Below are positions 12,946 to 28,867 of a stretch of DNA of 64,000 nucleotides, in pieces. The position numbers were made by a program, and so were the translations under genes. The notes beneath the pieces were generated by a model, which was given only the letters and a program-made list of their open reading frames with translations, was not told the DNA's origin and ran no database searches. Each line of letters opens with the position of its first letter. Within the stretch, counting starts at the first letter, position 1. The stretch comes from Propioniferax innocua. GTDB taxonomy: Bacteria; Actinomycetota; Actinomycetes; Propionibacteriales; Propionibacteriaceae. Where the stretch lies: NCBI RefSeq assembly GCF_006716235.1, contig NZ_VFOR01000001.1:310001-374000 (forward strand). Direction: 5' to 3'.

Positions 12946-14487
12946 TCAGACTCCGCGACTTGCGGGCTCGGGCTGCTCCGTCACCCGCTCGGCCACAGGC
13001 CTGCCGAAAATTGTTGACCTCTCCGCTTCTGGGACAGGATCGATCTCACCCGCTTGTACCTTTTCGCGATGACCATTGATCTCGCGGCGCAGGACATTGG
13101 ACAGGAAGTAGATCCCGACAAGATTTGGAATTGTCACCAAGAAGAAGAGCGCGTCAGAGAACCGCACCACCGTTTCGAGGGTCACCGCCGATCCGAGGAC
13201 AATCATCGTCAAGTAGACGACGTCATACACACGTTCGGCCACACGGCTTCGGTTGAACACAAAGCCAGCCGCCTTGCGTCCGTAGTACGAGAACGCCAGC
13301 ACCGTTGAGAATGCGAACAAGGCAATGCACACCGTTAAGAGCCACGGAAAGATGGCATGCACCGTGGCAAAGGCATCGGTGGTGAGTGCGACACCGTCGC
13401 TCTCGGATGACTTGTACTCCCCGGTGACGATGATCGCCAGTGCTGTCATCGTGCACACCACGACGGAGTCGATGAACGGTTCCCAGGAGGCCACCATGCC
13501 TTCCGCAGCAGGCCGACGATTCTTGGTCGCAGCATGAGCCATCCCTGCGGTTCCCACACCTGCGGCATTCGAGAACAGCGCCCGCTGGATTCCAACGACC
13601 ATGACCCCGACGACGCCACCGGTCACCCCTTCTCCGGTGAACGCGCCGCTGAAGATGAGACCGAGCGACTCGGGCACATGCTGAATGTTGACGCCCAATA
13701 CGACGAGGACACAGCCGATGTAGAGCACAGCCATGATGGGTGTGATGCGGCCGGTCCACTGTGCGATCTTCTTCAGACCACCGAGTATCACGATGCCGAC
13801 CACAGTAGCCAGCACCACTCCGATGAGCCAGCCTCGCTCGGCGAACCAACTCGCCTCGCCGCCAGTGGCCCCGATGATCTGGGCGGTCATCTGATTCGAC
13901 TGGAAGATATTGCCAGCTCCAGTGGCTGCAACCATCATGCAGGCCCCGAAAATCAATGCCAGGACTCGACCAAGCCGCGGGCGACCGATATCGGCAAGAC
14001 CATCGCGCAAGTAATACATGGGGCCCCCATCGATGGTTCCATCGATGTTGACGCGCCGGTACTTCTGGGCCAGCGTCGCCTCAGACATCTTCAGGGCCAT
14101 GCCGAACATCCCTGACACGATGATCCAAAACACTGCTCCCGGACCACCCACGGTGATGGCCACTGCAACACCTGCGATATTTCCCAAACCAACGGTTCCT
14201 GACAGCTCTGTGGCCAAGGCTTGGAAACTGGTTACCTCACCTTCGTCGTCATATCGGCTGAATCGGCCCCGAAGGATATCCAAGGTATGCCTCAGATCAC
14301 GCCAGGGCCTCATTCTCAGCCAAAGGGTCAGGAACAGTCCACCCGCAGTCAGCCAGATGACCAGCAAGGGCACCGAAAGTGCACCGAGCGTCAACTCGTA
14401 GAAGACGATCGCCTCCAGCACATCGACCACTGGGCCGAACCAACTCTGTATCCACGCATCGATCGAACTTCCTGTCAGGGGCATCAT
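12946..14487 (-). CDS. AGCS-family sodium:amino acid symporter
   Basis: About 513 residues with roughly ten membrane helices and family hallmarks: GTVGLGNIAGVAVAITVGGPGAVFW, GTIDGGPMYYLRDGL (split here to core motifs) and GVGTAGMAHAATKNRRPA. The family imports alanine or glycine with sodium. Located third in the minus-strand operon after the DUF1338 dioxygenase and the FAD oxidoreductase, it may instead bring in the amino acid that this island degrades. Start at the ATG at 14487 is chosen because AAAGGTGA lies about 8 bases upstream; tandem GTG codons at 14496 and 14493 are alternatives. Confidence 0.9.
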   Translation of the reverse strand: MMPLTGSSIDAWIQSWFGPVVDVLEAIVFYELTLGALSVPLLVIWLTAGGLFLTLWLRMRPWRDLRHTLDILRGRFSRYDDEGEVTSFQALATELSGTVGLGNIAGVAVAITVGGPGAVFWIIVSGMFGMALKMSEATLAQKYRRVNIDGTIDGGPMYYLRDGLADIGRPRLGRVLALIFGACMMVAATGAGNIFQSNQMTAQIIGATGGEASWFAERGWLIGVVLATVVGIVILGGLKKIAQWTGRITPIMAVLYIGCVLVVLGVNIQHVPESLGLIFSGAFTGEGVTGGVVGVMVVGIQRALFSNAAGVGTAGMAHAATKNRRPAAEGMVASWEPFIDSVVVCTMTALAIIVTGEYKSSESDGVALTTDAFATVHAIFPWLLTVCIALFAFSTVLAFSYYGRKAAGFVFNRSRVAERVYDVVYLTMIVLGSAVTLETVVRFSDALFFLVTIPNLVGIYFLSNVLRREINGHREKVQAGEIDPVPEAERSTIFGRPVAERVTEQPEPASRGV

Positions 14488-14565
14488 TGCCACCACTCAC
14501 CTTTCGATTCTTCACAGTTGTGCACCGCGGCGACCCGCTTCATTGCAGTACCCACGGCTGCATGA

Positions 14566-15720
14566 TCAAACGATGTTCAGTTCAGGCCGCCATGTATTTC
14601 CAGCAAAACGGTCGGCATTAAAGGACGAGACATCAACGAAGGGCTGCTCACCGCGAACAAGATCACGCATCACTTCGCCGATCGCTGGACCCTGAAGGAA
14701 GCCATGTCCTGAAAAACCAGCCGCATAGAAGAATCCGGGCACCGCACTGGATTGCCCGATCAGGGCGTTATGGTCAGGCGTGTTCTCATACAGGCCCGCC
14801 CAGCCGGAGCAGAAACCCACATCTTGAAGATGAGGGATCCGCCTTTCCATGGCGCCACACAGGTCCTCCAGCCAATCGTCGCTCATGGACGTACAGAATC
14901 CGGGCTCCTCTCCCCGGTATGACATCCCCATCAGCAACCCAGGCCCTTCGTTGTGAAAGTAAAGCCCGGTGCGATGATCGATCGTGAATGGCGTGTCGGC
15001 GGCCAGGCCTTCAATGGGCTCGGTGATGAGAATCTGACGCCGGAGCGGTTCGATCGGGAGTGTGACACCGGCCCATTCCCCCACCTCCTTGGACCAAGCA
15101 CCTGCGGCGCAGATGACCGTATCGGTGGCGATCGGGCCGGCTACCGTCTGCACTCCGGCAATTCGCCCGTCGACGATGTCGATGTCTGTGGCCGCGCAAC
15201 CGCTGATGAGTCTCGCTCCGGCTTTCCTGGCGGCACGGACATATCCGACAACCACTGATTCGGGAGTGCAATGGCCATCGCGTGGCGTCCATGCCGCAGC
15301 GACCAAGTCACCGGTGACCGCCTGGGGGGAGAGCTTCTTTGCCTCGGCAGGAGAGATTATGTGCGATTCAAGCCCCAATCGCGTCTGAAGCTCTGCATTC
15401 GCGGTGAACATGTCGACTGCTTCATCATCGTCGAGCAGAAAAAGGTAGCCGACCTGATGCAAGTCGATAGCCTGATCGAAGAGCGTCTCGAAGTTCTCGA
15501 AGATCTCAAGGCTTCGTGCCCCGAGTTGGACGTTCACCTCATCGGAGAATTGAGCACGGATACCTCCTGCAGCTCTGCACGTGGAAGCTTCGCCGAACCC
15601 TCCCTTGTCCAAAAGCACCACGTCACGGATCCCGGCAGCCGCAAGCTCATAGGCAGTGGCCACCCCCATGATGCCTCCGCCGATTATCACCACGGATGCC
15701 TGCTTCGGAATGGTGGTCAT
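14566..15720 (-). CDS. DAO-family FAD-dependent amine/amino acid oxidoreductase
   Basis: 384 residues. The N-terminus has the FAD Rossmann motif VVIIGGGIMGVATAYELA, followed by the STCRAAGGIRAQF flavin-contact region, and the C-terminal GFFYAAGFSGHGFLQGPAIG typical of sarcosine oxidase beta / glycine oxidase relatives. It oxidises an amine or imino acid, probably a secondary amine. Next to the 2-oxoadipate dioxygenase and an AmaB-like aldehyde dehydrogenase, the attractive substrate is L-pipecolate (the AmaA role). ATG at 15720 has AAAGGA upstream; the longer upstream reading lacks support. It follows the DUF1338 gene by 11 bases. Confidence 0.88.
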   Translation of the reverse strand: MTTIPKQASVVIIGGGIMGVATAYELAAAGIRDVVLLDKGGFGEASTCRAAGGIRAQFSDEVNVQLGARSLEIFENFETLFDQAIDLHQVGYLFLLDDDEAVDMFTANAELQTRLGLESHIISPAEAKKLSPQAVTGDLVAAAWTPRDGHCTPESVVVGYVRAARKAGARLISGCAATDIDIVDGRIAGVQTVAGPIATDTVICAAGAWSKEVGEWAGVTLPIEPLRRQILITEPIEGLAADTPFTIDHRTGLYFHNEGPGLLMGMSYRGEEPGFCTSMSDDWLEDLCGAMERRIPHLQDVGFCSGWAGLYENTPDHNALIGQSSAVPGFFYAAGFSGHGFLQGPAIGEVMRDLVRGEQPFVDVSSFNADRFAGNTWRPELNIV

Positions 15721-15731
15721 GGTCGTTCCTT

Positions 15732-17129
15732 TCAGGCCGCCAGATGTGACACGCCGAGTTTCTCCATCGCGGCCTCGAGCGATGCACGCGATTGCGCGGC
15801 GTAGAGATCGTGAGGGTCGGTGATGGCTCGCCCCATGGCGCGGGCCAGCCACTCTTCATCACGTTCGATGGCGTTCTGGGACTCGTCCTTGGAGCCACGA
15901 TCAGTGAGATTGGAATCGAAGATTCCTGCCGCCGAACGCGGTAGGAAGTCCTCATAGACGATGGGCGTGGCAGTGATGTGGCCACTGTCCAACAAGGCGG
16001 AAAAGGTCCCCGGCAGCGGCCCCTTCTGATCAGGGTGTGCGGTGTAGGTGAAGTAAGCCAGTTCTCTCCTGCAGAGCTCCTCCTCACTGGGGCACCGTTC
16101 CTCCCATACTTCGCGCGCCACGTCGACGCGAGTCACCCGAGGATCGACTCTGCGGCGATCCACCAGCCGACGGTCGGTTTCGGCCACCATCTCGTCATAG
16201 AGATCACGACCCGCCGGCGTGAGCGCTATGCCCCGTTGCTCCACCTCCCCGAACCGAACACGTAATTCACCAGTCGACAGGCTTCCATCCGTTTCGCGAA
16301 AGGTACGCTTCTCGGCCAACGCGCGGAACGAGGTCTGGCGCAACAGCAAGTCGGGAAAATCACCACCGGGCGGCCCCTGCACCTCGGCGATCATTTCGAA
16401 GCCACGCTCCTGCATCGAGGCGTACAGGTCATCGATATCCAGCACGCGGGGCGTCAGGTGATTGATATGAGTCGATTCCACCCCTCCGATGTCGGCCGCG
16501 ACCCCGGAGACCCTGCCCAATTCTTCGTACCATGCCCGGTCTACCGGAATATCGGACAGCTCGAAAGCACCGACCGCGAGATCCAAGAAACGGTCAGCGT
16601 CGGCAGAAGCCAGCCCCCCGTCAACCTCAGCACGGTCTGCCAGCTCGAGCAGTTCGTCGTCGAAGAGAGTTCGCGCCGCCAGAAATTCCTTGAGCCGAGA
16701 CTCCTGATCCTCTGAGAAGAACCGTCGATCTTCGGGGATCAGCATCGAAGTGAACACCCGGAAGGGGTTGCGCGCTAGCTCCTCAGGGGCATGCGGGCGA
16801 AACGCAGTGGATACCACAGGTACCGGCTGCGGGTAAGCGTCTCGAAGATCGTAAAAGCCCGTCGGGTACATACCGCAGGCACCGAAGATGCGCGCTGCCT
16901 GCGACAGCTCTTCGGGGGAGCCGACGCGAATGGCACCATGCCGCTCTGCCGTCACCCGGTCAATGGTGCCGAGGCGCTCGGCAGAGGCCTTTTGGGTATC
17001 CATCACACGTTGATTGACTTCTGCCGAGACGTCCACAAGGGCGTTGTAGGCCGGCACCTCAGAACCGTAAAGCTCCGACAGTCGAACGGCGAAGCGAGCG
17101 CGTAGCTCCACAGGAAGGATGAAGGACAT
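15732..17129 (-). CDS. hglS: DUF1338 (HglS/YdcJ-type) 2-oxoadipate dioxygenase/decarboxylase
   Basis: 465 residues. In Pseudomonas putida the DUF1338 enzyme HglS converts 2-oxoadipate to D-2-hydroxyglutarate with loss of CO2, using Fe(II) and O2. Likely metal ligands are visible in the expected order: His in ERHGAIRVGS, His in ESTHINHLTPRVLDID, and Glu in RFGEVEQRGIALT. ATG at 17129 follows GGAGG at ideal spacing; upstream readings to 17177 lack this. First gene of an operon with the flavoprotein and the AGCS symporter. A T-N11-A dyad lies about 100 bases upstream. Family identity is strong, while the exact substrate is by analogy. Confidence 0.87.
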   Translation of the reverse strand: MSFILPVELRARFAVRLSELYGSEVPAYNALVDVSAEVNQRVMDTQKASAERLGTIDRVTAERHGAIRVGSPEELSQAARIFGACGMYPTGFYDLRDAYPQPVPVVSTAFRPHAPEELARNPFRVFTSMLIPEDRRFFSEDQESRLKEFLAARTLFDDELLELADRAEVDGGLASADADRFLDLAVGAFELSDIPVDRAWYEELGRVSGVAADIGGVESTHINHLTPRVLDIDDLYASMQERGFEMIAEVQGPPGGDFPDLLLRQTSFRALAEKRTFRETDGSLSTGELRVRFGEVEQRGIALTPAGRDLYDEMVAETDRRLVDRRRVDPRVTRVDVAREVWEERCPSEEELCRRELAYFTYTAHPDQKGPLPGTFSALLDSGHITATPIVYEDFLPRSAAGIFDSNLTDRGSKDESQNAIERDEEWLARAMGRAITDPHDLYAAQSRASLEAAMEKLGVSHLAA

Positions 17130-17268: not shown

Positions 17269-18198
17269 TCAGCCCTCTGGAAGGCTGATGCCGGGAATAT
17301 CCTCAGCCAGCTCACCCGCGGCCACGAGAAGTCCTCTGATCGCTTCAGGGACAGCCGCATTGGTCATTGTTCGACGGTGCACGATATCGATCCGGCGATA
17401 GATCGGCGCGGCCAATGGACGAGAAACAGCCCCCTGCCCCTCCCGAACTGCAAGTGATGGCATCAGAGCTATCCCGAGATCAACCGAAACCAGTCCCCGG
17501 ATGACCGCATAGTTGTTCGAACGGTAATCCACCTTCGGAATAAAGCCATGTTGCGCGGCCAATGCTTGAAGACACTGCGTCCCATCCGCAGAGTCAGAGG
17601 TGTTAATCCACATCTCTTCGCTCAATGTCGCCATGTCGAGCACCTCGCGTTTGGCCAAGGGGTTCCCCTCGGCAACCATCACCACGACCTCGTCGATGAG
17701 CAGCGGGATCGCGGTGAGGGTCCGCGGATAGGCACGCGGAACGAGGTCGTAGCGGTAGACCAGCCCGAGGTCCAGCTCACCATCGGCGAGGAGTGTCAAA
17801 ATCATCTCCGGCTCACCCTCGTCCAGCTGCAATGCGAGCTCCGGATACAGCTCACGGCGCGCGGAAAGCCATCGCGGGAGCAGTCGGGAATTGATCGTCG
17901 GAAACGACCCGACACGCAACAGCCCCGCAGACCCGCCCACCATCTCGGCCACTTTGTTCTCCAGGTCTTCCATGTCTGCCAGCACAGCGCGAGCATGTGT
18001 AGCCAGCACCATCGCTGCGGGCGTGGGGGTCACACTATGAGCTTCACGCTCAAACAGCGTGAGGCGACTGGCCCGTTCCAAGGCGGCCATCTGCTGGGAA
18101 ATCGCTGAAGCCGTGAAGTTCAACGATCGAGCGGCATCGGCGAACGACCCTGTTCGCAGAACCGTGACCAGTGTATGAAGGTGCACAGGGTTCAACAC
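17269..18198 (-). CDS. LysR-family transcriptional regulator
   Basis: About 309 residues. The winged-helix domain opens LNPVHLHTLVTVLRTGSFAD and contains the recognition helix region FTASAISQQMAALE; the effector-binding domain follows (LLRVGSFPTINSRLLPRWL). The start is set at GTG 18198, which places the HTH at the usual distance; an ATG at 18234 or 18291 is possible. Directly upstream of hglS on the same strand, it probably activates the hglS-flavoprotein-symporter operon in response to a pathway intermediate, through the T-N11-A site at 17233. Confidence 0.9.
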   Translation of the reverse strand: MLNPVHLHTLVTVLRTGSFADAARSLNFTASAISQQMAALERASRLTLFEREAHSVTPTPAAMVLATHARAVLADMEDLENKVAEMVGGSAGLLRVGSFPTINSRLLPRWLSARRELYPELALQLDEGEPEMILTLLADGELDLGLVYRYDLVPRAYPRTLTAIPLLIDEVVVMVAEGNPLAKREVLDMATLSEEMWINTSDSADGTQCLQALAAQHGFIPKVDYRSNNYAVIRGLVSVDLGIALMPSLAVREGQGAVSRPLAAPIYRRIDIVHRRTMTNAAVPEAIRGLLVAAGELAEDIPGISLPEG

Positions 18199-18309
18199 GA
18201 CTGCAGGGTAACCGTCAGCAGGTGCGCCGTGCATACGGCCTTGGCCCGAATGGATCAATGGGCCAGACTGCCATTGTCGACAACCGATCATCGCAGGCGG
18301 ACAATCACC

Positions 18310-18966
18310 ATGACGAACCAGACATCCCGTCCCCAGACCCTCACGCGGATGACCCTCAAGGACTCCGCAGAGGAGTTGGTGCGTGGCGCGCTTCTCGACG
18401 GGTCCATGCAGCCCGGAGAGATCTACTCAGCCAACGCACTTGCGCGTCGCCTGGGCGTCTCCAACAGCCCGGTCCGCGAGGCCATGATGGCCTTGGCTGC
18501 GCGTGGCCTGCTCGACCCCGTTCGCAACCGTGGATTCCGAGTCGTTCGCTTCACTGAACAGGACAAACAGGAGGTGTACGACCTCCGATGCCATATCGAA
18601 GTTGAAGCCGTGCGCCGGGTGGCTGCGCAGAGAATCGACCCTGAAGATGCCTCAGCTCTTCGAGATCACGCGAGGCAGACACTCCACTTGGCGAAGAACG
18701 CCGATCTCACAACGTACCTGAACGCTGATCATGCTTTTCACCTCGATATCGTCGGGCGTCTGGGCAACAATCGCTGGCTTGAATTCGTCGCCACTTTGCG
18801 TGACCAGGCCCGCATCAACGGCGCATACGCCTATCTACAGGACCATGCCGGACTCATGCAGAGCGCACGAGAACACATCGAGATGGCCGAAGCGATAGCA
18901 GACGGCCAACCCGACCGCGCTGCCGAAGTGATGCTGAAGCACCTGGAGTACGCGCGCCCCACCTGA
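18310..18966 (+). CDS. GntR-family (FCD domain) transcriptional regulator
   Basis: 218 residues. The N-terminal winged helix contains SANALARRLGVSNSPVREAMMALAARG (here cited by its core RLGVSNSPVREAM), followed by a C-terminal FCD ligand-binding domain with the metal-binding pattern D..H (NADHAFHLDIV) and a later histidine (AREHIEMAEAI). Divergent from LysR and upstream of the aldehyde dehydrogenase; a palindrome at 19016 in the next promoter is its likely operator. ATG at 18310 is chosen to put the HTH at a normal distance; there is no clear ribosome binding site. Confidence 0.9.
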   Translation: MTNQTSRPQTLTRMTLKDSAEELVRGALLDGSMQPGEIYSANALARRLGVSNSPVREAMMALAARGLLDPVRNRGFRVVRFTEQDKQEVYDLRCHIEVEAVRRVAAQRIDPEDASALRDHARQTLHLAKNADLTTYLNADHAFHLDIVGRLGNNRWLEFVATLRDQARINGAYAYLQDHAGLMQSAREHIEMAEAIADGQPDRAAEVMLKHLEYARPT

Positions 18967-19104: not shown

Positions 19105-20628
19105 ATGCCCATCACCGCCGACCCCGCCCTCGACGAATCCGTGCAGACAGCCCTCACCGCCTGCGGCGTCACCCCTTCCATGCTGGGCGGCGATCACGAA
19201 GTAACCACTCCCCTCACCGGGCAAACGGTCGCGTCGGTCAACATGGCGTCCGTCGACGACGTGAGCGCAGCGATTGAGAGAGCCGACGTAGCCTTCCGCA
19301 CATGGCGGGACGTACCCGCCCCCGAACGCGGGCAGGTGGTCAAGCGTTGGGGCGAGCTACTGACCGAGCACAAAGTCGATCTTGCTGTTCTGGTTCAGGC
19401 GGAGGCAGGAAAGGTCACCTCCGAGGCCCTTGGTGAAGTGCAGGAGATGATCGACATCTGCGACTTCGCGCTCGGCCAATCGCGCATGCTGTATGGCCGC
19501 ACGATGCCGTCTGAACGGCCTGGGCATCGGCTGATGGAAACGTGGCACCCCATCGGCGTGGTGGGTGTGATCTCCGCCTTCAACTTTCCGGTCGCGGTCT
19601 ACTCGTGGAACACTGCGCTGGCCCTGGTGGCCGGCAACACCGTCGTGTGGAAGCCTTCCCCCGCCACTGCGCTGTGCTCTTTGGCCACCGATGCCCTATT
19701 GGCACGGGCCATCGCCGAATGTGGCGCCCCCAGCGACATCCACCAACTTGTCATCACCAACCCCGAATCAGCAGCACCGATCTTGGATGATCCCCGCGTC
19801 GCGTTGGTCTCAGCCACCGGATCCACACGCATGGGCAAGGAGGTCTCCCCACGCGTCGCTGCCCGTTTCGGTCGTTACCTCCTCGAGCTCGGTGGCAACA
19901 ACGCCGCAATCGTCACGCCCAGTGCAGATCTGGATCTGGCCCTGCGCGGAATCGCATTCGCGGCGGTGGGTACAGCAGGTCAGCGCTGCACCACCATGCG
20001 TCGTCTGATCGTCCACGAGTCCATCGCGGACGATCTGGTCGAACGTCTGATCTCCGCCTACGGAACCTTGACCATAGGCGACCCCCGCGACGAGAAGACA
20101 CTGGTTGGGCCATTGATCAACGAAGCAAGTTTCACTGCCATGCAGGATTCGTTGGACCAAGCACGGGCCGAAGGCGGCAAAGTGATCACCGGTGGTAGAA
20201 GAGTACTCGCCGATGAGAATCCGGGAGCCTACTTCGTGGAGCCCGCCATCGTGCGCATGCCCAGGCAGAGCCAGGTGGTGCACACCGAAACGTTCGCACC
20301 GATCCTCTACGTGATGACCTACTCCTCGCTCGACGAAGCATTGGAGATGCACAACGCCGTGCCTCAAGGGCTATCGGCATCGATCTTCACTCAGGACATC
20401 ACCGAGGCGGAGATTTTCTTGTCGGCACGGGGTTCCGATTGTGGGATCTCAAACGTCAACATCGGCACCTCTGGCGCGGAGATCGGCGGTGCCTTCGGAG
20501 GCGAGAAAGAGACCGGCGGTGGACGCGAATCGGGCTCGGACGCTTGGAAGGCCTACATGCGGCGTGCCACCAACACCATCAACTACTCCGGCGAGCTTCC
20601 GCTGGCACAGGGAGTGGAGTTTCTCTGA
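19105..20628 (+). CDS. amaB: ALDH7/AmaB-like aldehyde dehydrogenase (2-aminoadipate semialdehyde type)
   Basis: 507 residues. Catalytic residues are visible: the general-base Glu in LLELGGNNAAIV and the nucleophilic Cys in GTAGQRCTTMRRL, both in the form characteristic of the ALDH7 (antiquitin/AmaB) group, which oxidises 2-aminoadipate 6-semialdehyde/piperideine-6-carboxylate to 2-aminoadipate. ATG at 19105 has AAGGAG 6 bases upstream, better than an upstream ATG at 19063. Its stop overlaps the start of the next gene (TGATG), so the two proteins are translationally coupled. Probably controlled by the GntR protein through the palindrome at 19016. The gene symbol reflects inferred role. Confidence 0.85.
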   Translation: MPITADPALDESVQTALTACGVTPSMLGGDHEVTTPLTGQTVASVNMASVDDVSAAIERADVAFRTWRDVPAPERGQVVKRWGELLTEHKVDLAVLVQAEAGKVTSEALGEVQEMIDICDFALGQSRMLYGRTMPSERPGHRLMETWHPIGVVGVISAFNFPVAVYSWNTALALVAGNTVVWKPSPATALCSLATDALLARAIAECGAPSDIHQLVITNPESAAPILDDPRVALVSATGSTRMGKEVSPRVAARFGRYLLELGGNNAAIVTPSADLDLALRGIAFAAVGTAGQRCTTMRRLIVHESIADDLVERLISAYGTLTIGDPRDEKTLVGPLINEASFTAMQDSLDQARAEGGKVITGGRRVLADENPGAYFVEPAIVRMPRQSQVVHTETFAPILYVMTYSSLDEALEMHNAVPQGLSASIFTQDITEAEIFLSARGSDCGISNVNIGTSGAEIGGAFGGEKETGGGRESGSDAWKAYMRRATNTINYSGELPLAQGVEFL

Positions 20629-21752
20629 TGTTCGATCTGATGGATGAATGGGGGCCCGAGAAGATCGTGGCGGTCAGCGACGTCCGCACCGGCATGCGCG
20701 GCGTACTCGTCATCGACAACACCGCACGCGGCATGGGCAAGGGCGGCACCCGCATGCAGCCGAGCGTCAGCGTCACCGAGGTCGCCCGACTGGCTCGGGT
20801 CATGACGTGGAAATGGGCCGCGACCGACCTGTTCTATGGGGGCGCCAAGGCTGGCATCGCTGCAGACCCCAATTCTCCTCACAAGGAGGAGATTCTTCGG
20901 TCCTTCGTGCGCGCGCTGCGCAACGAAGTTCCCGAGGAGTATGTGTTCGGGTTGGACATGGGCCTCACCGAGAACGACGCTGCAGTCATCAACGACGAAC
21001 TCGGTCGCGGCAGCGCCGTGGGGACACCCTACGAACTCGGCGGTATGCCCTACGACCAGCTGGGCGTGACCGGCTACGGAGTGGCCGAGTCGATCGACGC
21101 GACGGTGTCGCGTCTGGGAATCAAGCAGGCTGGTGTCGCGATTCAGGGTTTCGGGGCTGTGGGACACGCTGTGGCTCGCCGACTGCAGGACCTTGGCCAT
21201 CACGTCGTGGCGATCTCCACTGCAGAGGGGGCCCTAGCCGATCCGAACGGCCTGGACGTCGATGCGCTTCTTGCGGCACGCAACCTGCATGGGGATGCCT
21301 TGGTCCATGAGTTCGCAGACCGATCGATCCCTGTCGGCGATGAGTTGTTCGTCGACGCCGATGTGCTTGTTCCGGCAGCGATGCAGGATGTCCTCAGCGT
21401 CGATGACATCGAGCGTGTCCAGGCAAAAGCCTTGGTGGAGGGGGCAAACCTGCCCACAAGCCCCGAGGCACAGGCGGCCTTACTGGAGCGAGGCATCACG
21501 GTGGTTCCCGACTTCATTGCCAATGCCGGTGGCGTGGTCGCTGCAGCCTTCGCGATGGATGCCCGAACCTCCGCGTTCCGACCCGACACCGACAAGGTGA
21601 TGGCCACGGTCGCCGAACGGATTCGAGAAAATACCGAGACGGTTTTACAAGCCAGCACGGATCGAGGCATAACGTCCCACGAAGCAGCCCGCACGCTGGC
21701 ACAGGAAAGGGTACGCAAGGCGATGGACCTGCGAGGTCGTTCTCTCACCTGA
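20628..21752 (+). CDS. Glu/Leu/Phe/Val-type amino acid dehydrogenase
   Basis: 374 residues. Substrate-binding Lys (MTWKWAATDLFYGGAKAGIA), catalytic Lys in GGAKAGI, catalytic Asp in FGLDMG, and the NAD loop GFGAVG are all present. The family oxidatively deaminates amino acids to 2-oxo acids. It is coupled to the AmaB-like dehydrogenase by an overlapping TGATG, and 2-oxoadipate is the substrate of the nearby DUF1338 enzyme. A plausible role is therefore 2-aminoadipate to 2-oxoadipate, replacing the usual aminotransferase. That substrate is inference; glutamate or leucine cannot be excluded. A strong hairpin terminator follows. Confidence 0.87.
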   Translation: MFDLMDEWGPEKIVAVSDVRTGMRGVLVIDNTARGMGKGGTRMQPSVSVTEVARLARVMTWKWAATDLFYGGAKAGIAADPNSPHKEEILRSFVRALRNEVPEEYVFGLDMGLTENDAAVINDELGRGSAVGTPYELGGMPYDQLGVTGYGVAESIDATVSRLGIKQAGVAIQGFGAVGHAVARRLQDLGHHVVAISTAEGALADPNGLDVDALLAARNLHGDALVHEFADRSIPVGDELFVDADVLVPAAMQDVLSVDDIERVQAKALVEGANLPTSPEAQAALLERGITVVPDFIANAGGVVAAAFAMDARTSAFRPDTDKVMATVAERIRENTETVLQASTDRGITSHEAARTLAQERVRKAMDLRGRSLT

Positions 21753-24530: not shown

Positions 24531-25382
24531 ATGACTCAGATCCCCGATTTCACGACCCCCGACTTCTTCGGTCTTGAGGACAAGTGGCTCGAGACCGCGC
24601 CCGGTGAGATCACCCACTACCACGACCTCGGCGAAGGCACCCCGATCCTCTTCCTCCACGGTTCGGGTACCGGCGTCACCGCTGCGGCGAACTGGTGGCT
24701 GACGCTGCCGGACATGGCCGAGGTGGGACGCTGCATCGCGATCGACTCCATCGGGTACGGCCAGAGTGTCGTGGCCGAGGGCACCGAGTACGGCATCCGC
24801 GCCTGGGTGGAGCACGCCATCCGCGTTCTCGACGCCCTGGGCATCGAGAAGACGTGGATCGTCGGCAACTCCCTCGGTGGCTGGGTCGGCCTGCAGCTCG
24901 CCATCGACCACCCCGAGCGTCTCCACGGCGTCGTCTCGATGGGCACCGGCGGTGCGCAGCTCACCGGAGCGCTCAAGTCGCACTCCAATCCCGTGCTGAC
25001 GCCCGAGGGCATCCGCGAGACCTTGGAGAAGTTCGTCGTCGACAAGTCCCTGATCACCGACGAGTTGGTGCGTCTGCGCTTCGAGTCGGCGCAGAACGAC
25101 ACCGCGTCGGACCGTCTCAAGCAGGTCGTCGCAGCGCGTGACCGGGACCGCAACGAGTTCCCGCTCGATTTCGACGCCCTCGCCAAGCTGGAGATGCCGG
25201 TGCTGCTGATCCATGGCATGCAGGACGTCGTCATCACACCGTCGCGCACCTGGGATCTGCTCCAGACCATCCCCCATGCCGATGCGCACATCTTCAACCA
25301 GTGCGGTCACTGGTCGCAGGTGGAGAAGGCCGAGGAGTTCAACAAGGTCGTCGGTCTGTACCTGAAGGAACGGGGTGCCTGA
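24531..25382 (+). CDS. mhpC: Alpha/beta hydrolase, MhpC-like meta-cleavage product hydrolase
   Basis: 283 residues. Nucleophile elbow GNSLGGW (Ser), catalytic Asp in IHGMQDVVITP, catalytic His in QCGHWSQVE, and oxyanion region LHGSGTGV. These fit 2-hydroxy-6-oxonona-2,4-dienedioate hydrolase, which cleaves the ring-fission product made by MhpB. AAGGA precedes the ATG. The stop overlaps the start of the dioxygenase gene (TGATG), so the two enzymes are coupled and probably act in sequence on an aromatic acid ring-cleavage product. Confidence 0.9.
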   Translation: MTQIPDFTTPDFFGLEDKWLETAPGEITHYHDLGEGTPILFLHGSGTGVTAAANWWLTLPDMAEVGRCIAIDSIGYGQSVVAEGTEYGIRAWVEHAIRVLDALGIEKTWIVGNSLGGWVGLQLAIDHPERLHGVVSMGTGGAQLTGALKSHSNPVLTPEGIRETLEKFVVDKSLITDELVRLRFESAQNDTASDRLKQVVAARDRDRNEFPLDFDALAKLEMPVLLIHGMQDVVITPSRTWDLLQTIPHADAHIFNQCGHWSQVEKAEEFNKVVGLYLKERGA

Positions 25383-26332
25383 TGCCGCAGGCCCTGGTGT
25401 GCATGTCGCACAGCCCCCTGCTGGAGCATGTGGAGCCGCCGGCCGATGTGAAGGCGTCGGTACAAGAGGCGTTCACCGCCGCGAGGGAGTTCGTGCATGA
25501 TTTCGCGCCCGATCTGGTGGTGAACTTCGGCCCGGACCACTACAACGGCTTCTTCTACGACCTCATGCCGCCGTACTGCATCGGGTTCACCGCCACCGGG
25601 ACCGGTGACTACGACTCGTGGGCCGGTCCGCTCAACGTTCCCACCGAGGTGGCCGAACGTCTGGCCCAGTTCGTGATCGACCGTGACATCGACGTGGCCA
25701 TCTCGCGGGCCATGGAGGTCGATCACGGCGCGGTGCAGCCCATGGAACTGCTCTACGGCGATCTCACCGACAGGCCGATCATCCCGGTGTTCGTGAACTC
25801 GGTGGCGCGGCCGTTCGTGAAGATGGAGCGCGTGCGGCGCTTCGGCGCGGCCGTGGGCGAGTTCTTCGCGACCGATGCGGAGTTCGCCGACGCCAAGGTG
25901 CTCTTCCTGGGCTCTGGTGGCCTCTCGCACGATCCACCGGTCCCCCAGTGGGCGACGGCCACCGACGCCCAGCGCAAGTTCCTCACCGACGGACGCAACC
26001 CCACCCCCGAGGCCCGTGCCGCGCGTCAGCAGCGGACGATCGACACCGCCAAGGCGTTCGCCGCGGGCACCGCGTCGGTCCAGGACCTCAACCCCGAGTG
26101 GGACCGGGCTTTCTTGGAGATCTGCCGTACCGGGGAACTCGAACGTTTCGACGCGCTCGACGCCGACGAGATGGACGCCGCCGCGGGGCACTCCTCGCAC
26201 GAGGTCCGCACGTGGGTCAGCGCCTACTCCGCGCTCGCCGCGGCCGGTGCGTACGACGTGACCTACGAGTTCTACCGCCCGATCAAGGAGTACATCGCCG
26301 GGTTCGCGGTCACCACCGCCACCCTGCGCTGA
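25382..26332 (+). CDS. mhpB: MhpB-like extradiol catechol 2,3-dioxygenase
   Basis: 316 residues, collinear with E. coli 3-carboxyethylcatechol 2,3-dioxygenase: start LVCMSHSPLLEHVEPPADV, FGPDHYNGFFYDLMPPYC, VDHGAVQPMELLYG, LGSGGLSHDPPVP, and end YYRP-like EFYRPIKEYIAGF. The His pair in SHSPL and PDHYNG and the VDHG histidine are the expected Fe(II) and acid/base residues. The start is the ATG in TGATG at 25382. A terminator follows directly, so the transcript carries only mhpC and mhpB; the hydroxylase and lower-pathway genes are not in this window. Confidence 0.92.
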   Translation: MPQALVCMSHSPLLEHVEPPADVKASVQEAFTAAREFVHDFAPDLVVNFGPDHYNGFFYDLMPPYCIGFTATGTGDYDSWAGPLNVPTEVAERLAQFVIDRDIDVAISRAMEVDHGAVQPMELLYGDLTDRPIIPVFVNSVARPFVKMERVRRFGAAVGEFFATDAEFADAKVLFLGSGGLSHDPPVPQWATATDAQRKFLTDGRNPTPEARAARQQRTIDTAKAFAAGTASVQDLNPEWDRAFLEICRTGELERFDALDADEMDAAAGHSSHEVRTWVSAYSALAAAGAYDVTYEFYRPIKEYIAGFAVTTATLR

Positions 26333-26408: not shown

Positions 26409-28781
26409 TCACTCGGCTCCGGTCAGCCGGTTCCATCCGATGGTGCGGTAGTCCTCGAACATCTGGCTGCAGAGGCGTCCGTAGCCCTCCTCGCGAATAC
26501 AGTGTTCAGCCTGCGTCGGGTATCCATATTTGCTCCGTTCCCACCCCTGCGCAGCCCAGTGCTCGAAGATCTTCCCCTGCACAGGCCAGGCTCCTGTCTT
26601 CGGCGACCAGTAGATATGACCCTTCTCGTGCTGGAAACGCTGGTAGCAGCCACCATCACGCAGGCCACAGATCTCATCGGTCACGGGAAACCCGAACCGG
26701 CCTTTCTCCCAGCCAGTGCTGCCGTAGCGGGCGTGGATCATCCCACGGGTGAAGTGCGCTCCGGTCGCAGGAGACCAGTAGATGTGGGTGTCCTCCTTCT
26801 CGAACCGCTGGAAGCAGCCACCATCACGCAGGCCACAGATCTCATCGGTCGTGGGGAAGCCGAGCCGCGGGTTGGCCTCGTATCCGAGCTGGCCGTACTT
26901 CCCATGGATCTTGCCACGCGTGAAGTGGGCTCCCGTCTCCGGCGACCAGTAGATGTGCCCGCCGTGGTGCTGGAAGCGCTGGAAACAACCACCACTGATG
27001 CTGCAGTCCTCGTCGGTGACCGGATAGCCCAGAGCGTGGTTCTCCCAGCCCATGGACGCGTACTTGCGCAGGATCTCGCCCTTGGCGAAATGTGCCCCGG
27101 TGGCCGGGGACCAGAACATGGTGCCGCCGGTGAAGCGTTGGCTGGCGCCGCCGTCGCGCAGGCCGGTGGCCTCACCCGTCGTGGGCAGGCCGAGAGTCCG
27201 GTCCCCACCCATCTCGACATACCGCTCACCGATCGCACCAACGACCGCGTGAGTTCCGGTTGCGGGCGACCAGTACACGCGTCCGTTCTCGAACACCTGG
27301 ACGCGTGCGCCCGGCGTGAACGTATCGGATTCACAGCTCTGCGGCGCGCCCAGTTCTGGATGTTCGGCGGCGTACTTGCCGATCTCGCCATATGGCTGGC
27401 ACTCGGAGAGGTCGAACGGTTCGACGCGGATGTAGTCGATCTGGTCGTTGTGCTCGGCGAAAGGCTGCGAGTCATCCACGGCGGGAGCCCAGCCGCCACT
27501 CTCGGGGAACTTCACACCGACCACCGACTGCCATGCGTAGTCGTTCATCACGTGGCTGAACTTCTCCTGGGTGAGCCCGATCGTCTCGGGCGTCACATGC
27601 GGTCCCTTGTCACCGTCCAGAGGTTCACCGTCGAGGTAGTAACGGATGGCGTACCCGTCGTACTCGACGCGCCATGTGTGCCACTCGCCCGGGAGATCCT
27701 TCTTCGTGCCGACGCTGTAGCGCGGGAATCCCGAGGGGCCGCAGTCCATGTGCGTCGTGGCCACCGATCCGTCGGTTCCCCAGACCTCGAGCACGTCCAT
27801 CTCGGCGATGTTGGTGTCCGGGTATTCTTCCCGGCAGAACTGCTGATCGTTGTGCGTCCAGGCAGCCAGCGTCAGGCCCTCGTGCGGGGTGTCCATCTTC
27901 GCGCGGATCTCCATCACCTTGGGAGTTCCGTGCACGTGTCGGCTGAGCATCCGCGAGCCCGAGTAGATCGTCTGCTTCCCGTCGGGGCAGACCCTTTCAG
28001 TGGCGTTCGCGTCGGTCAGCGGCTCATCGGCGTTGTCCACGCAATGGCGACGCGACCGCAGGTTGAGCACTCCGTCACCCTCATCATTGGTGATGACGCT
28101 GACGTTCTCGGCGACATTCCGGCTCTTGCCCTTCCCGCCGCTGTCGTAGACGTACCAGCTCTTCGACAGCCCGTTCTCGTTGAACTCGTCGCCGCGATCG
28201 AGCGGATAATCCGGGTGAACGGTGAACCGGTGTTCCCACGAGGTCTGCCCGATGAGCAGCAGGCTGTTCCCGTTGGGACGAGCTTCGATCGTCAGCGGAT
28301 CGCCCCCGTACTCGGACAGGTCGTTCCAACTGTTCGGGGTGAGGCGCCGCTCCTGGCCCTCGTGGATCACGAGGTAGTGCATGCCCCATTGCCCGGGGGC
28401 GTGTACGCGTTGCTCCTTGTCGTGGAAGCGGGGAGCCGTAGGCTCGAACACGAAGGGGAACTCGTGTCGCCACGTCTTGGTGCTGCCGTCACTCGCGGTT
28501 GCGACGAACTCGATCCACTGGGAGCGTTCCGGCTGGGCGAACTCGACCTCGTGAGTGCCCGGTGTCACATCGGTGCCGTCGGCGGAGTACACGACACCGT
28601 CGATGTCCGGGATCGTGAAGGTGGATGCACGGTCGTCGTAGGTCGGCTGGGTGAGAGCTGCACGTTGGTGAACGGTCGGGCTGGGCGGCTCGGCGGGTTC
28701 GGCGTGCGCCACAACGCCACCGGACAACGCCACGGAGGCCGCGACGGCCAGTGCGGCCGCGCCACGGACAAGGCGGTTCAT
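26409..28781 (-). CDS. Secreted GH16-like glycoside hydrolase with C-terminal LGFP repeats
   Basis: 790 residues. ATG at 28781 with GGAG upstream gives a Sec signal peptide (RGAAALAVAASVALSGGVVAHA). An N-terminal beta-rich region is followed by a GH16-like lectin/laminarinase fold (about residues 185-430) with the catalytic pattern E-M-D-V-L-E inside NIAEMDVLEVWG. The last 330 or so residues form about six LGFP-type repeats, each with YWSPATGAH and GFPTTDE-like cores; such repeats anchor corynebacterial proteins to the envelope. Likely an extracellular polysaccharide hydrolase held at the cell surface. Two neighbouring repeats are nearly identical at DNA level (26640-26690 and 26811-26860). 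Confidence 0.87.
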   Translation of the reverse strand: MNRLVRGAAALAVAASVALSGGVVAHAEPAEPPSPTVHQRAALTQPTYDDRASTFTIPDIDGVVYSADGTDVTPGTHEVEFAQPERSQWIEFVATASDGSTKTWRHEFPFVFEPTAPRFHDKEQRVHAPGQWGMHYLVIHEGQERRLTPNSWNDLSEYGGDPLTIEARPNGNSLLLIGQTSWEHRFTVHPDYPLDRGDEFNENGLSKSWYVYDSGGKGKSRNVAENVSVITNDEGDGVLNLRSRRHCVDNADEPLTDANATERVCPDGKQTIYSGSRMLSRHVHGTPKVMEIRAKMDTPHEGLTLAAWTHNDQQFCREEYPDTNIAEMDVLEVWGTDGSVATTHMDCGPSGFPRYSVGTKKDLPGEWHTWRVEYDGYAIRYYLDGEPLDGDKGPHVTPETIGLTQEKFSHVMNDYAWQSVVGVKFPESGGWAPAVDDSQPFAEHNDQIDYIRVEPFDLSECQPYGEIGKYAAEHPELGAPQSCESDTFTPGARVQVFENGRVYWSPATGTHAVVGAIGERYVEMGGDRTLGLPTTGEATGLRDGGASQRFTGGTMFWSPATGAHFAKGEILRKYASMGWENHALGYPVTDEDCSISGGCFQRFQHHGGHIYWSPETGAHFTRGKIHGKYGQLGYEANPRLGFPTTDEICGLRDGGCFQRFEKEDTHIYWSPATGAHFTRGMIHARYGSTGWEKGRFGFPVTDEICGLRDGGCYQRFQHEKGHIYWSPKTGAWPVQGKIFEHWAAQGWERSKYGYPTQAEHCIREEGYGRLCSQMFEDYRTIGWNRLTGAE

Positions 28782-28867
28782 GGAAACTCCTATGAAGGAT
28801 GCAGGGGAAGTGTCACCATGTGAACACCCCTCGCCCCTCATATTCTGAGGACACTCTCACCTTTACC

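Follow-up and report, generated by a model that had tools for sequence, protein, structure and literature searches.

A gene for a glutamate/leucine/phenylalanine/valine (ELFV) dehydrogenase-like protein lies at 20628-21752 of a 64,000-nucleotide stretch of Propioniferax innocua DNA (contig NZ_VFOR01000001.1, positions 310,001 to 374,000; the whole stretch is called the window here). The gene probably encodes a dedicated NAD(P)-dependent L-2-aminoadipate dehydrogenase within a cluster for the breakdown of lysine or pipecolate, a reading of the sequence and its surroundings to which a probability of about 0.69 is assigned. With somewhat more reserve, but still in favor, the same can be proposed for a whole actinobacterial family dedicated to L-2-aminoadipate: natural large-pocket relatives of glutamate dehydrogenase (GDH) that would permit lysine and pipecolate breakdown without an aminotransferase, release ammonia directly, and feed either HglS or glutaryl-CoA dehydrogenase (GCDH). 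The features on which the argument depends are the following.

20628..21752, + strand: ELFV dehydrogenase-like protein, 374 amino acids, candidate L-2-aminoadipate dehydrogenase (open reading frame, Pfam, alignment, tree)

20626..20630, + strand: TGATG stop-start overlap of the aldehyde dehydrogenase and ELFV genes (upstream TGA at 20626-20628)

19105..20628, + strand: piperideine-6-carboxylate / 2-aminoadipate semialdehyde dehydrogenase, Pcd/AmaB type (NF050084, 804 bits, cut-off 730; 6rtr, E 2.3e-214)

15732..17129, - strand: HglS, 2-oxoadipate dioxygenase/decarboxylase (NF050083, 664.8 bits, cut-off 600; 6w1g hydroxyglutarate synthase, E 1.9e-84)

14566..15720, - strand: FAD oxidoreductase of DAO/sarcosine-oxidase-beta type, candidate oxidase/dehydrogenase for L-pipecolate or the like (PF01266, 249.3 bits; nearest solved structure 1y56_B)

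In the known chemistry, 2-aminoadipate is the direct product of Pcd and 2-oxoadipate the direct substrate of HglS. What is missing between the two is a deamination, for which the cluster offers the ELFV dehydrogenase and, less likely, the FAD enzyme. The original prediction had called the upstream gene AmaB-like in function, and this is borne out: its product passes the cut-off of the L-piperidine-6-carboxylate dehydrogenase model NF050084, and its nearest solved structure is named "Semialdehyde dehydrogenase Pcd" (6rtr). The Pcd start at 19105 was picked within a longer open reading frame from 19063, and the HglS start codon at 17129 is likewise a choice made here.

The ELFV gene is an intact open reading frame of 374 codons with its ATG at 20628-20630. 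It had been described as translationally fused to the aldehyde dehydrogenase gene; the TGATG is there, but it is a stop-start overlap of two genes and not a fusion, and the two are likely to be translationally coupled through it. By its matches to ELFV_dehydrog (PF00208, 185.9 bits, cut-off 23.4) and ELFV_dehydrog_N (PF02812, 75.6 bits, cut-off 25.3), both above the gathering scores, and by its catalytic residues, the protein is a member of the ELFV dehydrogenase superfamily. The predicted retention of the catalytic Lys and Asp extends to its relatives, in an alignment of 68 family members: K74 is found in 67 of them, and D110 and the substrate-loop N299 in all. An AlphaFold model (mean pLDDT 92.3) has the fold of glutamate dehydrogenase (8i83, Z 48.8, root-mean-square deviation 2.2 over 366 residues; Foldseek E 2.7e-33 to 3aoe). 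The 50 fold-search matches listed are glutamate dehydrogenases, one of them named phosphinothricin dehydrogenase; leucine-type enzymes are not thereby excluded, and do appear as relatives in the sequence search against solved structures. Seven NCBIfam glutamate dehydrogenase equivalog models match the protein and none of their cut-offs is reached (best 194.8 bits against 620; also 194.2 against 750 and 108.3 against 536). The same kind of model is matched by all 44 members of set A1, the scores quoted being those of the window protein only. Two GDH rows have an Asp after strand two of the nucleotide domain; the window protein has Thr there, a difference that decides for neither NAD nor NADP.

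Relatives of the protein, at 40-73% identity, were found in 67 loci by a scan of genome contigs. For the alignment one open reading frame per locus was used (second copies in L024 and L039 were left out), and comparison hits above 30 bits and 230 residues were kept; the tree was built without three duplicate rows. The window protein, those of the 67 loci and the second L024 copy form one clade (support 99/95) apart from the sampled canonical GDHs and leucine-type enzymes. Three members, from L059, L060 and L063, branch at the base of the clade, and some outgroup branches are very long. Two tandem dehydrogenase copies occur in Nocardioides acrostichi (L024:6662-9119), 59% and 62% identical to that of the window and both with Lys38 and Ala306.

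The residues of the substrate pocket point to a substrate that resembles glutamate but is larger. Where GDHs have the carboxylate-binding Lys, leucine, phenylalanine and valine dehydrogenases have a hydrophobic residue, and that signature is absent from the family: position 38 is Lys in 68/68, as in glutamate dehydrogenases. In the leucine-dehydrogenase-like protein of the same genome (C1:272528; its best solved matches are leucine dehydrogenases) the residue is Phe. The corresponding Lys of C. difficile GDH, matched by the alignment made here, binds the distal carboxylate of the substrate, according to the accessible part of PMC9902596. The rest of the pocket was compared with 26 lysine-bearing GDH rows, which represent 25 distinct genes (the genome's own GDH enters twice, as L070 and L132) and come from loci that are best matches only, favoring canonical GDHs. 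Position 306 is Ala in all 68 members versus Ser in all 26 GDH rows, and position 108 is Gly in all 68 versus Ala in all 26. At position 131, where the 26 rows all have Thr, 54 of 68 members have Val. These align with Ser381, Ala167 and Thr196 of Pseudomonas putida GDH, whose pocket residues include Lys93, Ala167, Thr196, Arg208 and Ser381; in that enzyme A167G gave a 123-fold gain of activity on a bulkier phosphinyl analogue (PMC9902596, in its accessible part). Against the GDH pocket signature Lys/Ala/Arg/Ser, the family keeps the Lys, has Gly for Ala and Ala for Ser in 68/68, and mostly has Gln or Glu for Arg. At position 313 Arg occurs in 55/55 members linked to pathway genes and in 10/10 unlinked members with a letter there, versus Asn, Asp or Ala in the GDH rows. 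The pocket would thus appear to be naturally enlarged: Gly108 is the very substitution that engineers used to enlarge it, Ala306 removes a side chain, and the Lys is kept, a combination that might be expected for glutamate plus one CH2.

Flanks of mostly 8 kb per side were inspected, and the counts are lower bounds because some loci end at contig ends. Pcd is nearby in 48/67 loci, HglS and an FAD oxidase each in 41/67, a YdiJ-like D-2-hydroxyglutarate dehydrogenase in 29/67, a lysine/arginine-type ABC binding protein in 19/67 and a piperideine-2-carboxylate-reductase-like gene in 15/67; at least one of Pcd, HglS, FAD oxidase, GCDH and YdiJ-like dehydrogenase is nearby in 54/67. Neighbors were named from NCBIfam matches; for the YdiJ-like, reductase-like and binding proteins, the representative scores under its curated cut-off. 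Order and strand vary: Pcd precedes the ELFV gene in L001, for example, HglS follows it in L020, and in L016 Pcd and HglS lie on the other strand. An alternative layout, in which the ELFV gene precedes HglS and the FAD oxidase and Pcd lies a few kb further, is seen at L020:8001-15588 and also in L021, L024, L043, L050 and L054. Pcd and the ELFV gene are adjacent on one strand in 22 loci, of which one has the TGATG (L048), five a possible ATGA overlap (L022, L027, L042, L051, L066) and the remaining 16 gaps or unclear starts; the TGATG overlap is not deeply conserved.

2-Oxoadipate goes either to D-2-hydroxyglutarate or to glutaryl-CoA, and since it has both fates, an exchange between HglS and GCDH is what an enzyme producing 2-oxoadipate predicts. 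GCDH is found in four loci without HglS nearby (L030, L033, L044, L067), and HglS and GCDH occur together in none of the 67 loci. The L044 gene matches 3sf6 (E 2e-181) and stays under the NCBIfam cut-offs among the matches listed; in carrier genome G129, GCDH is at the locus and no HglS match was found in the genome.

Co-occurrence extends beyond the loci. HglS is encoded elsewhere in 2/26 carrier genomes without it nearby, and Pcd elsewhere in 7/19 (six above the cut-off), which brings the genome-wide counts to 43/67 and 55/67, respectively. In an even sample of the class (296 genomes; Pcd counted at E <= 1e-180 and the ELFV gene at E <= 1e-80), HglS is present in 25, Pcd in 54 and the ELFV gene in two, in both of which Pcd lies directly before it. 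The 294 non-carriers include 52 with Pcd and 24 with HglS. The enrichment in carriers over non-carriers is large (Fisher tests, 1.6e-23 for Pcd and 1.2e-21 for HglS), for samples drawn differently, at slightly different thresholds and uncorrected for kinship.

Several observations weigh against a dedicated 2-aminoadipate enzyme. Position 144 is Arg in 26/26 GDH rows and corresponds by the alignment to a distal-carboxylate binder in C. difficile GDH; of the 55 linked members, 29 have Gln there, 19 have Glu and only five have Arg. In P. putida GDH, Ser381Ala and Thr196Ala were also made, and neither is one of the two substitutions singled out for a strong benefit, which counts against the part given to Ala306 (both points on GDHs from the accessible part of PMC9902596). 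The pathway genes are missing from the flanks of 13/67 loci, and ten carrier genomes have neither Pcd nor HglS anywhere (L014, L017, L025, L036, L045, L047, L055, L057, L059, L067; L045, L055, L057 and L059 are metagenome-assembled genomes (MAGs)). All ten keep K38, G108 and A306; the residues therefore do not prove the substrate, and the idea that they might suffice as proof was rejected on this ground. The L033 genome encodes HglS elsewhere besides GCDH at the locus, so the HglS/GCDH exchange holds within clusters and is not a strict rule for genomes. Only 2/296 genomes of the class sample carry the ELFV gene and 24/25 HglS genomes lack it; other solutions to the deamination step must therefore be commoner, and the ELFV dehydrogenase would be one of several. 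Within the window, the cluster's own FAD enzyme is another possible deaminating oxidase. Elsewhere in the genome there are ten PF00155 aminotransferase matches above 50 bits, which could include a 2-aminoadipate aminotransferase. The unlinked context in a deltaproteobacterial MAG (L059:4642-8079) also points elsewhere: after the homologue come the 5-oxoprolinase genes PxpA (384 bits, cut-off 226) and one that is PxpC-like. This suggests glutamate; a route from 6-oxopipecolate to 2-aminoadipate can be offered, speculatively, as an alternative to glutamate metabolism.

The homologue of L067 has an FAD oxidase, GCDH and a Pcd-like gene of 39% identity beside it. In Streptomyces sulphureus (L014:4928-11970) the cluster consists of a thiamine-dependent enzyme, a transporter-like open reading frame, the ELFV dehydrogenase, a succinate-semialdehyde-dehydrogenase-like gene and an L-2-hydroxyglutarate oxidase (528 bits, cut-off 299), and it possibly represents a third fate of 2-oxoadipate, through glutarate. 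The homologue of L060 adjoins a subunit like those of 2-oxoacid:acceptor oxidoreductases (394 of 411 bits) and an FAD oxidase. The L060 and L014 contexts are compatible with either 2-oxoadipate or 2-oxoglutarate.

An aminotransferase hidden in the cluster was considered as a general explanation and rejected. When 13 aminotransferase-like proteins of the window's genome were compared with the 67 loci (tblastn, 1e-8, a screen that distant aminotransferases could escape), only nine loci matched, four of them among the 36 with both Pcd and HglS. The L035 match looks biotin-type (from a reading of L072/L079), those in L027 and L058 lie about 7 kb off, and class III types occur in L019, L033, L046, L051 and L063; for the L019 class III protein, L-lysine 6-aminotransferase (LAT) is not among the 25 families listed out of 55. 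In L049 the aminotransferase is inside the cluster, adjoining a piperideine-2-carboxylate-reductase-like gene. A swap was also looked for in 24 genomes with HglS and without the ELFV gene, where an aminotransferase would be expected in its place. In the eight genomes of genus g9, a class III type that is 27-30% identical to L073 lies a few kb at most from HglS; G237 has an aminotransferase about 7 kb off, G118 has one at a separate Pcd locus and 14 others have none. The outcome is not clean.

These observations bear on three other explanations. The protein might be a second glutamate dehydrogenase, with an unlinked aminotransferase using 2-aminoadipate as the amino donor for 2-oxoglutarate and the ELFV enzyme re-oxidizing the resulting glutamate. 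Its nearest solved and named relatives are indeed glutamate dehydrogenases, L059 adjoins 5-oxoprolinase genes and aminotransferases are available elsewhere in the genome; even so, this is judged unlikely. A canonical NADP-GDH is encoded in the same genome (770.2 bits, cut-off 536), which leaves no obvious need for another glutamate enzyme, and the GDH equivalog cut-offs are far off, positions 108 and 306 set all 68 members apart from every GDH row, and an aminotransferase is near so few of the loci. About as improbable is a broad dehydrogenase that accepts acidic or polar side chains of medium size, for which 2-aminoadipate would be one of several substrates and the main one would vary by lineage. 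The pocket residues shared by linked and unlinked members fit such an enzyme, as do the varied contexts of the unlinked loci, and promiscuity is on record in the accessible part of PMC8967036: Thermoactinomyces phenylalanine dehydrogenase acts on 2-ketoadipate at 0.125, and Bacillus subtilis GDH at 0.008, umol/min/mg. The link to Pcd and HglS, present in most loci and surviving rearrangement, speaks against it.

It is very unlikely that the enzyme serves another step, such as that of a lysine alpha-dehydrogenase leading to piperideine-2-carboxylate, and leaves the deamination of 2-aminoadipate to the FAD oxidase or to an unlinked aminotransferase. The piperideine-2-carboxylate-reductase-like genes of 15 loci would suit this proposal, but K38 would oppose a positively charged side chain, no such reductase is among the named window genes around the ELFV gene, and the FAD oxidase was not found in 26/67 loci. 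The claim of the original prediction, that a dehydrogenase takes the 2-aminoadipate step, is upheld in part: the pathway neighbors, their conservation in most of the 67 loci and the pocket residues speak for it, and members in other contexts and the general aminotransferases of the genome speak against it.

If the ELFV protein is the 2-aminoadipate dehydrogenase, the pathway might run as follows. Pipecolate would be taken up, perhaps by a symporter, and pipecolate or another source would be oxidized to piperideine-6-carboxylate by the FAD enzyme. The open form of this compound would be converted to 2-aminoadipate by the Pcd aldehyde dehydrogenase, and the ELFV enzyme would yield 2-oxoadipate and ammonia with reduction of NAD(P)+. 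HglS would then form D-2-hydroxyglutarate (for Pcd and HglS the family is given by a curated model and the substrate is presumed), and its conversion to 2-oxoglutarate would fall to a YdiJ-like dehydrogenase whose gene lies outside the cluster. Catalysis would be GDH-like: K74 and D110 would catalyze, with K62 and N299 kept, K38 would bind the distal carboxylate, and the additional CH2 might be accommodated through the observed Gly108 in place of Ala and Ala306 in place of Ser.

The remaining genes around the cluster are these.

12946..14496, - strand: AgcS transporter of the sodium:alanine symporter family, which might take up the substrate and whose true start is uncertain (TIGR00835, 364.4 bits, cut-off 272.65)

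17269..18291, - strand: LysR-type regulator, a long open reading frame whose true start is uncertain (clusters with a LysR of 28/67 homologous loci)

18310..18966, + strand: GntR/FCD regulator (family models)

The FAD enzyme reaches only 58.4 of 600 bits against the AmaA model NF050086, although the pipecolate reaction may be within the reach of another DAO subfamily. The nearest solved structure, 1y56_B, belongs to an archaeal proline dehydrogenase. The enzyme is, on its sequence, a candidate for a new type of pipecolate oxidase. The YdiJ-like homologue lies at C1:813019-815775, about 480 kb from the cluster, and is 53% identical to an Arthrobacter cluster protein, with one TGA counted inside the match. 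For LAT, the best score in the whole genome (99% complete) is 129 bits against the TIGR03251 cut-off of 520.8, which fits entry through pipecolate. Further along the window, an alpha/beta hydrolase gene adjoins a LigB-type extradiol ring-cleavage dioxygenase gene as an aromatic meta-cleavage pair that has no bearing on the proposed assignment (24531-26332, + strand), and an 810-residue protein with five LGFP repeat matches, probably secreted, is encoded at 26409-28841 (- strand).

The fold and chemistry of the enzyme are known; the substrate assignment, together with the pocket signature and the context, is apparently new. No 2-aminoadipate dehydrogenase of the ELFV family is named in the literature searched, among the matches listed, and as subscription journals lie mostly outside that literature, an earlier report is possible. 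In the accessible part of PMC8967036, the nearest case is a phenylalanine dehydrogenase engineered for homoglutamate, and the enzymes tested so far for converting 2-oxoadipate to 2-aminoadipate are slow. If the assignment is true, it would fill the deamination step of the actinobacterial lysine/pipecolate pathway, normally drawn as an aminotransferase reaction. It would also provide a natural biocatalyst for making 2-aminoadipate from 2-oxoadipate, and a simple annotation signature consisting of Lys, Gly and Ala at three pocket positions plus the Pcd/HglS context.

Among characterized enzymes, the glutamate dehydrogenases (Thermotoga 1b3b, Pyrobaculum 1v9l and the phosphinothricin dehydrogenase 8i83) share the fold, the catalytic Lys and Asp and the carboxylate-binding Lys with the window protein, to which they are 31-35% identical. 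They differ from it in length, the window protein being about 40 residues shorter (374 versus 415 for 1b3b), and from the family in having Ala at 108, Ser at 306, Thr where Val predominates at 131, and Arg where Gln or Glu predominates at 144. Leucine and phenylalanine dehydrogenases (6acf, 8hpe, 1leh) are of similar length and align from residue 1-2, and the GGTRM motif is as in 6acf; however, the window protein has Lys where the leucine-type protein of its genome has Phe and 6acf has Leu, and its best score to this group is 102.2 bits, versus 181.8 to GDH.

The P. putida D-lysine/pipecolate route comprises AmaA, AmaB, a 2-aminoadipate aminotransferase, HglS and YdiJ. The cluster resembles it in its Pcd/AmaB and HglS steps and in the YdiJ-like gene that lies near the dehydrogenase in 29/67 relatives; it departs from it in having, as proposed, a dehydrogenase in place of the aminotransferase, and an FAD oxidase that is not AmaA by model. 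HglS is described as part of the P. putida route in the accessible part of PMC7286885. The name AmaC, which the original prediction had given to the 2-aminoadipate aminotransferase, looks mistaken: P. putida AmaC (PP_3590) is annotated as a D-lysine aminotransferase, and its re-annotation as an L-tyrosine aminotransferase is proposed in the accessible part of PMC10949508. With the mycobacterial Lat-Pcd lysine route (PMC6746716, in its accessible part) the cluster has in common Pcd and, by NCBIfam naming, the HglS subfamily (NF050083, "Myco_VOC_HglS"); unlike that route, in which lysine enters through lysine epsilon-aminotransferase, the window's genome has no LAT over the cut-off.

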